Source: Elainella saxicola E1
Lineage (GTDB): Bacteria; Cyanobacteriota; Cyanobacteriia; Elainellales; Elainellaceae
NCBI GenBank assembly: GCA_002796835.1
Contig: LUGL01000050.1
Location: 6,826-45,944, forward strand
DNA: 39,119 bases
Reading direction: 5' to 3'
Part shown: in pieces, positions 29,357-36,404 of the stretch
How the letters are laid out: each line of letters starts with the position of its first letter
Position numbering within the stretch: position 1 is the first letter of the stretch
The notes under the pieces: model-generated
Databases searched by the model: none
Seen by the model: the letters and a program-made list of their open reading frames with translations, nothing else
What the model was told of the DNA's origin: nothing
Position numbers and translations under genes: made by a program

Positions 29357-29863
29357 CTAGAAATGCACAACAACCGGAGTACCGATCGAGGCCCAATCGA
29401 ACAGCCATTCCGCATGATCGACGGCCACATTGACGCAACCATGGCTGACGGGCGTGCCAAATCGGTGATGCCAATAGGCTCCATGAATTGCGTAGCCCCC
29501 GGAGTAGTACATAGTGAAGGGCACATCGGGTACATCGTAGTCAGCGCCTCGCATGCGGGCCGTGCGGTATTTCGATTGAATGGCAAAGGAGCCGGTCAGG
29601 GTAGGATGCTCATCGGTTCCGGTGGAGACAACCACCGCATAGACAGGCACATTGCCTTCCCAGGCGATCAGGCGTTGGGTGGAAATATTGACCTCAATCC
29701 AGCGATCGGCAGATTGTCTGAGGTAGGCCATCTTTTGTGTTGTGACATCACTGGCAAGGCTGGGTAGCGGTTTCTGGATGAGTCCGGTGCTCCAAACAGT
29801 TAGGGCCAATCCAGTCGCAATGCCAATTTGAGTCAAGTGCCAGAAATTCCGATCGCTGCTCAT
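29357..29863 (-). CDS. L,D-transpeptidase (YkuD family)
   Basis: A 168-aa secreted peptidoglycan enzyme. An N-terminal hydrophobic segment (about 12-28) is a signal or anchor, followed by a YkuD domain from about residue 55. The catalytic motif HGAYW...SHGCVN is intact: H127, H141 and the nucleophile C143. Such enzymes make 3-3 crosslinks or attach molecules to peptidoglycan. It is short, with no LysM or other wall-binding domain. ATG 29863 is the first Met. It is a single-gene unit facing away from the aminotransferase. Confidence 0.93.
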
Positions 29864-30144: not shown

Positions 30145-31341
30145 ATGCCTCAGTTTGAATCGTCGCGCATGCAGGTTGTTCAGTCGCCGATTATTCCGAT
30201 CGTTGCTGACCTAATTCGGCAAAATCCCGGCACGATTTCGTTAGGACAGGGAGTTGTTTCCTATGGTCCGCCGCCCGAGGCGATCGAACAAATCAGCCGC
30301 TTCCTGGCGAATCCCAACTACCATAAATATCAGGCGATCGAAGGCATTCCAGAGCTGTTGCAGGCGATCGAAATCAAACTCAAAACGGAAAATGGCATCG
30401 CGATCAATGCCGATCGGCAAGTGATTGTGACTGCTGGCAGCAATATGGGATTTATCAATGCCGTGATGGCGATCGCCGATCCGGGAGATGAGATCATCCT
30501 GCAAGTTCCCTATTATTTCAATCATGAAATGGCGATTCAGATGGCTAACTGTGTGCCGGTCTTTGTTGCCACCGACGATCAATATCAGTTGCAAATCGAC
30601 GCCATTCAAGCTGCCATTACTGCTAAAACCAGGGCGATCGTCACTGTTTCACCCAATAATCCCAGCGGCGCAGTTTACCCAGAAGCAGATTTGCGGCAGG
30701 TCAATCAACTCTGTCGGCAGCATGGCCTCTATCACATCCATGATGCGGCCTATGAGTATTTCACCTATGGGGATGGCGATCATCTATCTGCTCTTGCAAC
30801 CGGTCAGCCCCACTTTTCGCCCGGATCGATCGATCACAGTGATGCCTATACGATTTGTCTGTTTTCCCTATCGAAAGCCTATGGATTTGCCAGTTGGCGG
30901 ATCGGCTATATGGTCCTGCCGACTCATTTAGTGCCTGCTGTCCGCAAAATTCAAGACACGATCTTAATTTGTGCGCCGGTGATTTCCCAATATGCTGCCG
31001 TAGGGGCCTTGCAGGCTGGGATTGACTATTGCCACAGCCATTTGGTCTCGATCGCTCAGGTTCGGCAAAGTTGTTTGGAACAGTTGGCCACGATTCAAGA
31101 GATTTGTACCGTTCCGCTCGCACTAGGAGCCTTCTATTTTCTGTTAAAGGTACATACCGCTTTAGATTCTATGCAACTCACTGAGAAGTTAATTCGAGAC
31201 TATCAGGTTGCCGTGATTCCCGGTATGGCCTTTGGCATGGAGGGCTGCTATCTGCGGGTAGGCTATGGCGCACTCCAACCAGAGACAGTGCAGCAAGGTA
31301 TGGGACGATTAGTGAAAGGATTGCGATCGATCGTGGGGTAA
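30145..31341 (+). CDS. PLP-dependent class I/II aminotransferase
   Basis: A 398-aa fold-type I aminotransferase. Key residues are in place: N171/N172 in SPNNPSG, D200 and Y203 in HDAAYEYF, the PLP-binding lysine K244 in FSLSKAYGF, R252 just after it, and the C-terminal YLRVGYG arginine that binds the carboxylate. It resembles aspartate/tyrosine or KAT-type enzymes, but the substrate cannot be told from sequence. An AGGAAGG lies 6-7 nt before ATG 30145. It is a single-gene unit, with a Uma2 pseudogene converging on it. Confidence 0.95.
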   Translation: MPQFESSRMQVVQSPIIPIVADLIRQNPGTISLGQGVVSYGPPPEAIEQISRFLANPNYHKYQAIEGIPELLQAIEIKLKTENGIAINADRQVIVTAGSNMGFINAVMAIADPGDEIILQVPYYFNHEMAIQMANCVPVFVATDDQYQLQIDAIQAAITAKTRAIVTVSPNNPSGAVYPEADLRQVNQLCRQHGLYHIHDAAYEYFTYGDGDHLSALATGQPHFSPGSIDHSDAYTICLFSLSKAYGFASWRIGYMVLPTHLVPAVRKIQDTILICAPVISQYAAVGALQAGIDYCHSHLVSIAQVRQSCLEQLATIQEICTVPLALGAFYFLLKVHTALDSMQLTEKLIRDYQVAVIPGMAFGMEGCYLRVGYGALQPETVQQGMGRLVKGLRSIVG

Positions 31342-31351
31342 AGGCTGTATA

Positions 31352-31674
31352 CTAACCGACTTGAGTTAAGCGCTGAATAAATTGCTGATGCCCCTCAGAC
31401 TGGAGACCTTGTTGCAAAACGGCCAAGACTTGTTGCATTTCTCCGCTCAGCAATGCGGTTGTTGCTAACCACAAACCAGGACAAACTTTGCTGCGAACAA
31501 TCTCTTGCTCATCGGCTTCTAGAGGCAGATAGTCATCCTGACTCAAAGTTCAGCTTTCTTCAAGTGGGGCATCGCGTTATACCGACGCTCAAATTCATGA
31601 CGAGTTAGACGATCGCCACTTTCCAAAGGCGGGATTGGCACTACAGTTTGCTGCTGAGGAAGGCTATCAACCAT
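31352..31674 (-). pseudogene. Uma2-family (DUF820) gene with internal deletion
   Basis: From ATG 31674 the frame reads [20 protein letters not shown] and continues to [18 protein letters not shown], then TGA at 31543-31545; this is a normal Uma2 N-terminus. One frame over, SQDDYLPLEADEQEIVRSKV and PGLWLATTALLSGEMQQVL match the Uma2 C-terminus and end at 31352. The ~130 residues between, which hold the PD-(D/E)XK-like catalytic core, are missing, and the join is out of frame. A 64-aa ORF beginning at TTG 31546 is the C-terminal remnant, not a separate gene. The match is from memory of the family, which is greatly expanded in cyanobacteria. Confidence 0.8.
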
Positions 31675-32130: not shown

Positions 32131-33339
32131 ATGGCTATGAGACAGTCCCAAACCGAAATCAAAGCAATCGAGGCTGAGCTGCGATCGATCCGTGCAGATA
32201 AAAAAACATCCGGTCGATCGGTAACCTTGCTCGAACCCAATCGGCCTATTGAGTATGATCAACCCATTTCTCCTACGATTACTCGTCCGGCGGCCAATCC
32301 TCCAGTTGGCAAAGTTCAATCCCCTGTTAAACCATCATCTAAAACTCGATCGATAGAATGTTTTCCACTGCCGAAAAATAACGCCAGGGTGAACGTTGAG
32401 GAGACAGAACTCGCAGCCATAGTAGACCAGTTGCGGCAACAGACTCGCCCCTCTACGCCAGCGAATCCCTATCAAACTCCAGTGGTGACTGCATCCGATC
32501 GAGCCGTTGTTCGACAAATCTTAGAAGAAAAAGCCAGACAAATTAACTCGCTGTCTCATCAGCAAGAAGCCATCATTCGGGAGTTAATGCTGCTCTCCGA
32601 TCGATTTGAACAGGAACTACAGTTAGCGGATACAGATATTGATCAAGAATTTGAGCCGATTTGTGAATATGTCAGTGCAGAAGTTCCCTATGTGGATCAG
32701 GAACGAGATGGGACACTTTTGCTGACGACTCGATCGATCGATTGGCCAGAAACCGATTGGCCGGAAACCGGTTGGCCGGAAACCAATTGGTCAGAAACGG
32801 GTCGGCCAGAAACGGGTCAGCCAGCAGGACAGAACCGATCCTACACAGTGCGCCGCAAGCCCCGTCGATCGCTGTTGGTTTCTCTCACATCGCAAGTTTG
32901 GCGACTCACTTGGCAGCTAACCTGGCGACTCACAACTGGGACGATTGGGTTACTGGGCGTAATGGGATCGATCGTGACTGCTCCCATTCGTTGGCTACTC
33001 CTGAAAGAGCCCGCACTGAAAGAATCTGCTCCGCAAGAAACCGCTGTTCCGCCCCGTCGCAAAACCTATCGCGGTTCAGGGCGGCGGGCTGTTGCCACCG
33101 AAGCTCCCTTTAGCCTTAAATCAGCGCTAGTGCTTGTGATCGGCTCTGCCGCCTTACGGATTTTTCTAGATTGGGTCGTGGTCACCTATCCCATGCTGTG
33201 GATTCCCAGCGTGCTGGTGATGCTTGCCCCCGCATTGTTTGCCGTGTATCGCTCTACGGTCACTCCCCATGTGGGGTTTGCCTGGGGTTATCGTTTGTTC
33301 GCCATCATGATCGGTCTATTACTCGGAGGAAGACTATGA
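32131..33339 (+). CDS. Membrane protein with coiled coil and WPET repeats, first gene of envelope operon
   Basis: A 402-aa protein. Residues 1-110 are polar and disordered-looking. About 128-177 is a predicted coiled coil (RQILEEKARQINSLSHQQEA and onward). A five-residue repeat (D/G/N)WPET runs from about 204. A basic amphipathic stretch and a hydrophobic segment lie at about 245-290, and two or three membrane segments fill the last ~70 residues. I do not recognise a family. Its TGA overlaps the ATG of the next gene by 4 bp. The architecture (long cytosolic part, C-terminal anchor) suggests a scaffold (inference). ATG 32137 is an alternative start. Confidence 0.75.
   Translation: MAMRQSQTEIKAIEAELRSIRADKKTSGRSVTLLEPNRPIEYDQPISPTITRPAANPPVGKVQSPVKPSSKTRSIECFPLPKNNARVNVEETELAAIVDQLRQQTRPSTPANPYQTPVVTASDRAVVRQILEEKARQINSLSHQQEAIIRELMLLSDRFEQELQLADTDIDQEFEPICEYVSAEVPYVDQERDGTLLLTTRSIDWPETDWPETGWPETNWSETGRPETGQPAGQNRSYTVRRKPRRSLLVSLTSQVWRLTWQLTWRLTTGTIGLLGVMGSIVTAPIRWLLLKEPALKESAPQETAVPPRRKTYRGSGRRAVATEAPFSLKSALVLVIGSAALRIFLDWVVVTYPMLWIPSVLVMLAPALFAVYRSTVTPHVGFAWGYRLFAIMIGLLLGGRL
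32740..32823 (+). repeat. 15-bp coding tandem repeat ((D/G/N)WPET)
   Basis: Five full and one partial 15-bp units, the first being GATTGGCCAGAAACC, encode DWPET, DWPET, GWPET, NWSET, GRPET and GQP. It lies within the 402-aa membrane protein gene, between the coiled coil and the C-terminal membrane part. Units diverge mainly at first positions. Confidence 0.85.
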
Positions 33340-33473
33340 GCCCCCTATTACTTGGTGCCGCTTGGATTTTATTTGTGCTTTCCTGTTTCGCATCGATGGC
33401 TGCTGATGTCAAAGCCAAACCCCCTGTAAAGTCCATCAAGAAAGTTGGAGGACATGATGAAGAAACGATCTGA
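33336..33473 (+). CDS. 45-aa small membrane peptide of the envelope operon
   Basis: A 45-aa peptide: one hydrophobic helix (LLLGAAWILFVLSCFAS) and a basic/polar C-terminus. It begins inside the stop of the 402-aa gene (ATGA), with GGAGGA at 33325-33330, and overlaps the start of the next gene. The strong Shine-Dalgarno and the double overlap support translation. The function is unknown; a single-pass accessory subunit is plausible. Confidence 0.7.
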   Translation: MSPLLLGAAWILFVLSCFASMAADVKAKPPVKSIKKVGGHDEETI

Positions 33474-33855
33474 TCCCCATCCTCAAATCGGAATGCGGTT
33501 GTGTCTCTTGGGCGGAGCGCTCGCAGTCATCGCAGGACTCACCATGGATATGCGCAAAGTAATTTCAATGGAGCAAACTCGTCGGCCCGAAAATTGCGTT
33601 GGCCAGGTGAATGAAACGGCAACCATTTCACGCGATCAGCTTGCCACTTTCCTCACCGTTTCGGAACGCGGCTCTAAGGCAACCGTGCAGGATATTCTGC
33701 AAATGCCTTACTGCGAGTTATCGGGGCTGGAAGTGCGGGCCGGAGTGCCTGCCGAGCGATCGGTTTACCGGCTGGCCTTTGATCCTCAAACCTGGCTAGT
33801 GGTGCTCTATGAAGGCGACGAGTATGCTGGCTATCAATTTCGCGTCTCCCGCTGA
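33457..33855 (+). CDS. BamE-like small protein of the envelope operon
   Basis: With ATG 33457 the protein is 132 aa. GGAGGA lies at 33447-33452. ATG 33454 or TTG 33445 would add one or four codons. The N-terminus has a hydrophobic segment (LCLLGGALAVIAGLTM). The rest (SKATVQDILQMPYCELSG, then SVYRLAFDPQTWLVVLYEGDEYAGYQF) resembles the BamE/SmpA-OmlA fold, with a 'YRL...LVVLYEGD' strand pair. The resemblance is weak and by pattern only. It overlaps the 45-aa gene by 17 bp. Two cysteines (NCVG, PYCEL) could form a disulfide. Confidence 0.65.
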   Translation: MKKRSDPHPQIGMRLCLLGGALAVIAGLTMDMRKVISMEQTRRPENCVGQVNETATISRDQLATFLTVSERGSKATVQDILQMPYCELSGLEVRAGVPAERSVYRLAFDPQTWLVVLYEGDEYAGYQFRVSR

Positions 33856-33947
33856 CCCTTCTCTCGCTAACCCTCAGTGATCCCCATCTGTTCGATCCAA
33901 TGCTATATATGGGGGGTTATCCCTGCTAATGAGGAACGGACAAAGCG

Positions 33948-34427
33948 ATGGGGCGCTGGGATTGGGGCAAACGCGGAATTGCAGTTGCGATCGTACAGAT
34001 TGCCACTGTAGGTTGTTCGGCAATGCCGCCTATTTTCCCGCAGTCTGCTTCTGAGCCAGTGCGAACCATTCAAATTCAGCAATCCTGGCAGCTCAAGCCC
34101 GGTGATACGATTGGAGACTATCGAATTGCCGCCGGGTTAGGAGATATTTCGATCGAACTTAAAGGAGGTAAGGTTTATGCTCCTTTTGAAGGTCGAGTTC
34201 AACCTAATATTCCCGATTGTGTCATCTTTTCCAGTCCAGAAGTTCCGGCTTATCTCTTCCGGATGTGTGGCCTCAACCAGCCCCGCTTGGGTGCAGTCAA
34301 ACAAGGAGATGCGATCGGTTCAGGGGATTATCTCCACTTCGCCACGTTAAGAAAATTACCCGAAGGGACCTGGACGATTGTAGAACCTTCTCGCTCAATC
34401 TTAGAACGCTTACTTACCCCGTCATGA
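33948..34427 (+). CDS. M23-like lipoprotein without the catalytic histidines
   Basis: A 159-aa protein. The N-terminus has a basic region, a hydrophobic stretch and a lipobox-like IATVGC-S, so it is probably lipidated. Residues about 76-84 (VYAPFEGRV) and 119-132 (GDAIGSGDYLHFATL) match the two outer beta segments of M23/LytM peptidases. The middle HxxxD motif is missing and the terminal HLH is YLH (128-130), so the zinc site is not intact. Noncatalytic LytM-like proteins often activate amidases or bind peptidoglycan (inference). A GAGGAA lies 11 nt before ATG 33948. The stop overlaps the next ATG (ATGA). Confidence 0.65.
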   Translation: MGRWDWGKRGIAVAIVQIATVGCSAMPPIFPQSASEPVRTIQIQQSWQLKPGDTIGDYRIAAGLGDISIELKGGKVYAPFEGRVQPNIPDCVIFSSPEVPAYLFRMCGLNQPRLGAVKQGDAIGSGDYLHFATLRKLPEGTWTIVEPSRSILERLLTPS

Positions 34428-35731
34428 ACAAAGCACTTATCTGCCTTACTGGGTTGGCCACCGTTTTGTTGAGCCAGCCAGCCCTGGCTGTGAATCCCAA
34501 TTGGCAGGGGACGATGTCTAAATCAGCCTCCGGATATCAAACAGGTTATGAGTCTAGATACAACCTAGACTACCAAGAAAACACACTTCGCTCAACGCCA
34601 ATTGGAACACCAAAACCCTTTTCCCAACCGTCAACGGCTTCATCTCCCGGTCTTTTGCCGCCCCCTGCTGTGGAGCCACCCCTGGGTGTAACCGATCGTG
34701 CCGCCAATCCAGAGGATCGTTCTCAAGATAACCGTGCTGTGCTACCCCCACCCCCAGCCTTAGCCGAAAGTTCTGAGATCCCATCAGTCACACCATCAAC
34801 CTCGTCCTCACCTGGCATGATGCCATCAGGAGAGTCTGCTGATGCGAATCTGCCTAGCCTTCAGTTGGCACAGCCGATTCCGAGCGACATTGGTGTGGAG
34901 TTTGATCTATCCAATTCGGCTAAACCACTCCCTCCAGCAATACAGCAGCCACCCACTCCGTTACAGAGCAATTTGCCAGAAGGTGATTTACCAAAAAGTG
35001 ATCTGCCAAACAAGACGATCGCCCCTGCTCCGGCTCAACCCGATGCCGCAACTGCCCAGTCTCGCAAGCCAGAATTCACCCTGACTGATTTATTTAACGG
35101 CAACTCTGACTCGATCGTTGCTGTGATTGTCGGCAATGCAGAAGGGACTCGTCGTCCGGATGGAGGACCGAATCAAGCGTTTTATGGCCACAAAGATCCC
35201 GGTAATGGCGTATGGAACTTGGGCACATTTTCCTATCAGCATGGAGCCAATTCCCCTGAAGAAGCGGATGCCAAGCAATTGAATCGGTTGAAGCATCAAG
35301 CCCAGATCATGCAGCAAAAAGCTGCTGAGAAAGGCTTGCGGCTGACGTTAGAAGAAACATTGAATGGCATTGACCTGGCGAATCAGGCTCCTCAAGCGGT
35401 GATTGATGCAGAGGGATATATTGAGTGGCTGGCGCAAGCGCATGCTATGGGCAAGCAAGATGCAGATGCGATTTTATGGGCCAGAGTACAGTCTTTTATC
35501 GATCCCCAAACCCAACAGTGGAACGCACCAGGTCTGGGTAATACGCCCGATCGCATCAGTCAGGATCAGCAGCGTCGCATGGAGGCGATCGCCAACGCTA
35601 TCAATACGCAGAAGTATGAGATCTCTCCAGATGCTCGCTTACGTCCTCAGCCGATGGGCTTCCGCATGCCTGGATTTTTAGGAATGGTGCGTCAGTTGAC
35701 CCAGAAGACGGCTGATTTGCTGGGATTATGA
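34424..35731 (+). CDS. Secreted lysozyme-like protein, last gene of the envelope operon
   Basis: From ATG 34424 the protein is 435 aa; this start overlaps the previous stop and begins a clean signal peptide, MNKALICLTG...QPALA, cleaved after about 22. A long Pro/Ser-rich linker (to about 225) joins a C-terminal globular domain. That domain contains GNAEGTRRPDGGP (E240 is a candidate catalytic acid) and YGHKDPGN (from Y254), a plan similar to muramidases in which E-G-T and Y-G-x-x-D line the active site. Enzyme activity is inferred, not shown. It ends a compact five-gene plus-strand operon. Together with the M23-like lipoprotein it points to a peptidoglycan-remodelling machine. Confidence 0.7.
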   Translation: MNKALICLTGLATVLLSQPALAVNPNWQGTMSKSASGYQTGYESRYNLDYQENTLRSTPIGTPKPFSQPSTASSPGLLPPPAVEPPLGVTDRAANPEDRSQDNRAVLPPPPALAESSEIPSVTPSTSSSPGMMPSGESADANLPSLQLAQPIPSDIGVEFDLSNSAKPLPPAIQQPPTPLQSNLPEGDLPKSDLPNKTIAPAPAQPDAATAQSRKPEFTLTDLFNGNSDSIVAVIVGNAEGTRRPDGGPNQAFYGHKDPGNGVWNLGTFSYQHGANSPEEADAKQLNRLKHQAQIMQQKAAEKGLRLTLEETLNGIDLANQAPQAVIDAEGYIEWLAQAHAMGKQDADAILWARVQSFIDPQTQQWNAPGLGNTPDRISQDQQRRMEAIANAINTQKYEISPDARLRPQPMGFRMPGFLGMVRQLTQKTADLLGL

Positions 35732-35765: not shown

Positions 35766-36404
35766 TTAGCTACCGGGCCGGTTACGCAATTCGGCTGGCA
35801 TATAGGAACGATCGCCCAATATTTGCAGCATGGGACCATGGACATCAAACTGAACCACACTCACGGAAGCAGCTAGCATATCAATTCGATCGCGATAACG
35901 CCCCAAATCAATGCCCAAGAGGCTGCATAGAAGGACCCGAATCGTGGCTTTGTGTGAAACGACGAGCACATTGCCGTCTAGATATTTCTGCTCAATTTCT
36001 GCAATCACTAATGCGGCCCGACTCGCAAGTTGTACTGCTGTTTCACCTTCAGTCGGAGGATTCCAGGCTGGTTCGGTAAGCCAGCGCACATAATCTGAAG
36101 CATAGTGGTCCATGACATACTGGTTGGTTTGCCCTTCCCAGCGACCATATTGAATTTCCTTCAAGCCGTCCCGCAGCTGCATTTCCATGCCGATCGCATC
36201 ACAGAGCGGTTTTGCTGTGGCGATCGTGCGACGCATCGGACTGCAGTAGATCGCAGCCCAAGGGATCTGTTGATAGGCGGCACCAAAGGCACGTGCCATT
36301 TCATGACCTTCAGGTGTTAGATCGGGGTCGAGAATGCCACAATAGCCACCTGTTTGGCTAAAGGTTGTTTCTCCGTGACGGATGAAGTAGATTTTGAGGC
36401 TCAT
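35766..36404 (-). CDS. Histidine phosphatase family protein (phosphoglycerate mutase-like)
   Basis: A 212-aa protein of the branch-1 histidine phosphatase superfamily. The phosphohistidine motif is RHGET (R9, H10, E12). The second conserved His is H151 in VVSHKAT, R59 lies in SPMRRT, and E83 in LKEIQYGRWEG is the usual proton-donor Glu. Substrate may be a phosphosugar, alpha-ribazole phosphate or another phosphoester; it cannot be told here. It converges with the lysozyme-like gene 34 bp away. Confidence 0.92.
   Translation of the reverse strand: MSLKIYFIRHGETTFSQTGGYCGILDPDLTPEGHEMARAFGAAYQQIPWAAIYCSPMRRTIATAKPLCDAIGMEMQLRDGLKEIQYGRWEGQTNQYVMDHYASDYVRWLTEPAWNPPTEGETAVQLASRAALVIAEIEQKYLDGNVLVVSHKATIRVLLCSLLGIDLGRYRDRIDMLAASVSVVQFDVHGPMLQILGDRSYMPAELRNRPGS

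Follow-up and report, generated by a model that had tools for sequence, protein, structure and literature searches.

What does a compact group of five genes contribute to the cell envelope of the cyanobacterium Elainella saxicola E1? The genes, here designated A to E, lie within a window of 39,119 nucleotides, the whole stretch of DNA that was analysed, which is part of contig C188 in an 8.7-Mb genome. Pfam and NCBIfam scans found no family for any of the five proteins. The original prediction envisaged an envelope machine for peptidoglycan remodelling or secretion, with DNA transfer and lysis among its suggested roles.

Organisation and conservation of the cassette

As read directly from the sequence, all five genes are on the + strand. 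Gene A (32131-33339, +; 402 aa) encodes a protein with a predicted coiled coil in its N-terminal region and C-terminal hydrophobic segments, and its stop codon is overlapped, in an ATGA junction, by the start of gene B (33336-33473, +), which specifies a 45 aa peptide with a single transmembrane-like segment, as judged by hydropathy. Gene C (33454-33855, +; approximately 132 aa) begins at an ATG at 33454 or 33457, behind a GGAGG sequence, the corresponding overlap with gene B being 20 bp or 17 bp; its product is predicted to consist of an N-terminal membrane anchor followed by an extracytoplasmic domain. A 92 bp gap (33856-33947, +) separates this gene from gene D (33948-34427, +; 159 aa), the stop codon of which is likewise overlapped in an ATGA by the start of gene E (34424-35731, +; 435 aa). 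A longer, TTG-initiated open reading frame (ORF) from 34217 was considered as gene E and rejected as spurious. The dense packing on one strand that had been claimed for these genes, with two ATGA overlaps, a 17 bp overlap and a 92 bp gap, was confirmed from the sequence, with the B/C overlap given as 17-20 bp. A consensus scan identified no promoter-like or terminator-like site on the + strand of the gap between C and D, and the scan gave nothing above shuffled sequences.

On its downstream side the cassette is convergent with a phosphatase gene (35766-36404, -), and on its upstream side it adjoins a gene for a PRK05957-type aminotransferase (30145-31341, +), relatives of which are found near the cassette in loci L032, L042, L046 and L051. 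The sharing of this neighbour with several other genera fits a long chromosomal residence of the cassette. At 31352-31674 (-), a pair of short ORFs of 64 and 43 aa, each in a different frame, resembles by eye a broken Uma2-type gene, and a gene for a YkuD L,D-transpeptidase, another wall enzyme, is located approximately 2 kb upstream of the cassette (29357-29863, -). A role in anti-phage defence was considered and rejected, there being no PADLOC match for A, C, D or E.

Iterated profile searches over fetched loci recovered the order A-(B)-C-D-E on one strand across the taxonomic order of the host, and the same gene order and shared strand were evident in most of approximately 45 loci from many genera; most of the incomplete loci were truncated, either at a contig end or at the limit of the short segment retrieved. 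The arrangement is far beyond chance and does not represent an accidental grouping of genes. E has a match in 34 of 36 genomes of the host's order, often in at least two copies, and in 22 of 386 genomes taken from the phylum; C and D were each found in ten of the 386, these being the identical ten genomes and all falling within the 22 that have E. As related genomes are not independent, the very small chance values for this coupling are not to be taken at face value, but the coupling of the cassette genes is clear despite the kinship among the genomes. Elainella sp. Prado103, Pegethrix bostrychoides and one Leptolyngbyaceae MAG are among the named carriers. Synteny, the check proposed with the original prediction, is conserved on cyanobacterial chromosomes, with a looser form, in which E is paired with an M23 gene, present on plasmids. 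Literature searches of open-licence papers found no description of an A-E cassette.

The composition of the cassette varies between loci. Outside the host's order, A-C-D-E cassettes are found in families f14 and f23, and two loci of family f4 (L103 and L104) have a single fused C-D ORF adjoining E. Within the order, many loci have a recognisable B between A and C, whereas the searches did not reveal it in several distant cassettes. D is missing from some second copies (L021, L043 and L045), which retain C and E, and in one genome (G061) the C/D pair is remote from the single E identified there, such that D adjoining E is not indispensable. One copy in genome G025 (L042, 8326-10617) is rearranged, fragments of C and E occurring on both strands.

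Predicted products of the cassette

Gene D had been described as encoding a degenerate M23-like lipoprotein, a description that holds up as regards both the fold and the lost active site. An AlphaFold model built from seven sequences is confident over residues ~50-159; its best Foldseek matches are nearly all LytM/M23 domains, with that of PrgK first, and VIA-align gives Z scores of 9.8 to LytU, 9.2 to DipM and 9.1 to EnvC, the top 35 chains being at Z ≥ 8 with LytM/M23 proteins leading. On this model, D has the β fold of LytM/M23 domains. In addition, hhalign relates D (E = 9.7e-18) to an intact M23 protein encoded on a Leptolyngbya boryana plasmid; this M23 protein passes the Pfam M23 family, stands shortly before an E homologue and has two cysteines in common with D. 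The signature of an active M23 peptidase, comprising the HxxxD and HxH zinc ligands and the catalytic histidine, was not found in D and is lost in nearly all copies: D is without the loop carrying HxGxD, the histidine of the MCH motif is replaced by glycine in 38 of 41 distinct D ORFs, the first histidine of HLHF has become tyrosine or phenylalanine (Y/FLxF) in 28 of the 41, and the second is kept in only 20. Judged from its sequence, D is a pseudo-peptidase from which both the metal-binding loop and the catalytic histidine have gone. A cysteine behind the hydrophobic N-terminus is nearly invariant among the relatives of D; because a strict lipobox pattern is present in only 18 of the 41 ORFs, and the version in the window copy (ATVGC) is weak, D is graded a probable lipoprotein. 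With a LytM domain lacking an active site in a predicted exported protein, D has the sequence and structural features of a degenerate LytM regulator of the EnvC/DipM type.

The earlier description of E as a secreted lysozyme-like protein was similarly borne out, the protein having a signal peptide, a Pro/Ser-rich linker and a C-terminal lysozyme-like domain with a conserved putative active site. This domain (35075-35629, +) carries the motifs AEGTR, GHxDPGN, NxGxFSYQ and DQxRR, and among 93 non-redundant relatives the Glu of AEG, the Asp of HxDP, the Asn and Gly of NxG, one Arg and the DQ pair are invariant or nearly so, as is the His of the HxDP motif. The Glu is found in all 92 relatives with a residue at this position, and helix 14-23 of the AlphaFold model ends at it. 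The model, based on six sequences, is weaker than that of D (mean pLDDT 74). Its best PDB matches are mostly members of the lysozyme superfamily, a GH24 muramidase being first with a VIA Z score of 7.7, although as this value is within the chance range for helical models the fold alone is only suggestive; Foldseek returned no match under an E value of 0.001, those obtained being above 0.1, and the Pfam phage lysozyme (GH24) profile gave no match to E at E values up to 1. Conservation and context support E as a wall enzyme more strongly than does the fold match. The domain represents a predicted lysozyme-like family to which nothing in Pfam, NCBIfam or PHROGs corresponds. The favoured assignment for E is a probable muramidase belonging to a new sequence family, and we infer that it is catalytically active.

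The C-terminus of A contains three or four transmembrane-like stretches by hydropathy, and the protein is likely to be a membrane anchor. Orthologues of A are found upstream of C, D and E in many loci, the C-terminal part being the best conserved, and PDB sequence searches with A1, A2 and A3 gave nothing meaningful. A short in-frame repeat in gene A (32740-32830; WPETDWPETGWPETNWSETGRPETG) is not conserved in relatives. The extracytoplasmic domain of C has two conserved cysteines. The label 'BamE-like' previously attached to this protein received no support from sequence profiles: assignment to BamE (SmpA/OmlA) was rejected, as neither C nor any of nine relatives had a Pfam match and no PDB sequence match was found.

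A putative wall-opening unit and its alternatives

The favoured reading, which we consider reasonably probable, is that the five genes form a chromosomal, membrane-tethered unit for opening peptidoglycan, in which a lipoprotein with a dead LytM domain controls a muramidase. E would be exported and would cut glycan strands through a lysozyme-like domain borne on a long flexible linker. D, an envelope lipoprotein and former M23 partner without its metal site, would no longer cut, and may instead bind E, or the wall, and gate or position E. C, an anchored extracytoplasmic protein, would work with D, as the C-D fusions suggest, and A and B would fix the unit to the inner membrane as its anchor. 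Control of E by D is proposed from guilt by association, through the company that D keeps with E and C. That a dead LytM domain should control a glycan-cutting enzyme is plausible given that DipM stimulates the transglycosylase SdpA (PMC10336132), and that in PrgK a dead LytM domain lowers muramidase activity (PMC11323569).

The alternative that survives best, itself unlikely, is that E is a general or septal wall enzyme, involved in growth, septal openings or filament breakage, and that D mainly activates amidases in the manner of EnvC and NlpD, rather than acting on E. Dead LytM proteins such as EnvC are established activators of amidases in E. coli, and the fold of D is close to those of EnvC and DipM; a septal or filament role would also suit the presence of Leptolyngbya-like cyanobacteria among the named carriers. 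The cassette, however, contains no amidase gene, and the invariable presence of E in the ten genomes with C and D argues against an amidase as the principal partner.

It is quite unlikely that the cassette is instead the wall-opening part of a channel for DNA transfer or protein secretion, as PrgK is for pCF10. The position of the PrgK LytM domain as the first Foldseek match of D favours such a role, as do the modules of M23 and E on plasmids, three out of four of which are downstream of a gene encoding a protein with both a membrane segment and a P-loop-like motif. Such a gene precedes the plasmid modules L053 and L054 and the Calothrix module L056, the motif being judged by eye and no Pfam family exceeding the cut-off. 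A TrwB-like protein is also encoded by three of the four M23+E plasmids, but tens of kb from E, and MOB-suite classifies these plasmids as non-mobilizable. Furthermore, the Calothrix P-loop protein has no match in the host genome, where TrwB-like matches are confined to contig C241 rather than the cassette contig. The cassette in the window is chromosomal, beside a gene common to several genera, and no coupling protein or channel ATPase was found next to it, the annotated neighbours being non-secretion genes. As hhalign did not tie the distant C-like and A-like proteins of plasmids to C or A, the only components that the plasmid modules are taken to have in common with the cassette are E and a partner that is M23 or another wall enzyme. 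In Nostocales-type modules (L056, 12593-13453; L100, 7223-8086), the gene two before E encodes a protein of 286-287 aa; in L056 the matches of this protein are to phrog_3000 and an endolysin PHROG rather than to M23. Of the envelope machine originally envisaged, peptidoglycan remodelling is well supported for D and E by their predicted folds, active-site conservation and the phage and plasmid contexts, whereas secretion or DNA transfer is not supported, given the stable chromosomal setting, the annotated neighbouring genes and the location of the TrwB-like matches.

The E domain is also found in 32 viral contigs. In Microcoleus phage My-WqHQDG it is encoded between amidase and M23 genes, and a further E-like domain is fused to M23; fusions of E and M23 are likewise present in L107, L108, L129 and L134, and on a Leptolyngbya plasmid (L054). 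The domain is at the end of a large protein in a marine podophage, and in many viral contigs (L139, 2200-5172; L111-L137) it occupies the C-terminal end of a protein of ~900-1,000 aa. The large protein of L139, encoded two genes after terminase, has no Pfam or PHROG match and is probably a virion protein. Chromosomal relatives join the E domain to SLH domains. In a maximum-likelihood tree, all cassette-type domains cluster in a single supported group that excludes the phage and plasmid forms and almost every other chromosomal form, the deeper joins being unsure because of long branches. It is highly improbable that the five genes are a domesticated or cryptic phage lysis cassette, with B as holin and E as endolysin: the domain does occur beside lysis enzymes in phages, and B is a 45 aa peptide with one transmembrane-like segment, but the cassette-type E is a chromosomal group distinct from the phage forms and carries a signal peptide of its own, PHROG searches with A, C, D and E yielded nothing better than 0.01, and the cassette is near-universal in the order. 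No indication of a prophage location was found, A, C, D and E matching no phage family, the chromosomal position being conserved and E having its own clade. Lysis, one of the roles first suggested, is unlikely because nearly every genome of the order carries the gene set.

The favoured reading of a membrane-tethered peptidoglycan-opening unit can be extended more tentatively. It is possible, although we would not call it probable, that the cassette constitutes a new trans-envelope unit of one cyanobacterial lineage, in which a dead M23 lipoprotein, together with an anchored partner, gates a chromosomal muramidase of a new lysozyme-like family also present in phages and on plasmids, the wall being opened for a dedicated envelope conduit. 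A lysozyme-like family common to cyanobacteria, their plasmids and their phages is now defined, and the cassette provides a small system, open to genetic tests, in which a pseudo-peptidase has been retained next to the muramidase that it may control, with the parts split into separate genes where PrgK and phi29 gp13 are each one protein. The annotation of many hypothetical proteins would benefit, and attention would be drawn to machinery for wall opening in a cyanobacterial lineage that has been little studied.

Comparison with known systems

The GH24 phage-type muramidases provide the best structural matches of E, and resemble it in the Glu at the end of a helix and in use by phages, but E matches none of the Pfam, NCBIfam or PHROG families in sequence and is distinguished by its own motifs (AEGxR, GHxDPGN, NxGxFSYQ and DQxRR). 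Gp13 of phage phi29 and similar fusions combine a lysozyme-like domain with LytM/M23, as do the phage E-M23 fusions described here, whereas the M23 part of the cassette is a separate and apparently inactive protein. PrgK, of the pCF10 type IV secretion system, likewise pairs a dead LytM domain with a muramidase, which in PrgK is regulated by the LytM domain; it is, however, one protein of a Gram-positive conjugative plasmid, while the cassette consists of separate chromosomal genes, without a CHAP domain or nearby channel genes. EnvC, NlpD and DipM share with D an exported LytM fold without a metal site and, probably, a function as a regulator of wall enzymes, DipM also acting on a glycan-cutting enzyme. 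By comparison with these three proteins, D is short and consists of little more than its LytM domain; it is encoded together with a lysozyme-like enzyme and with C, to which it is fused in two loci.
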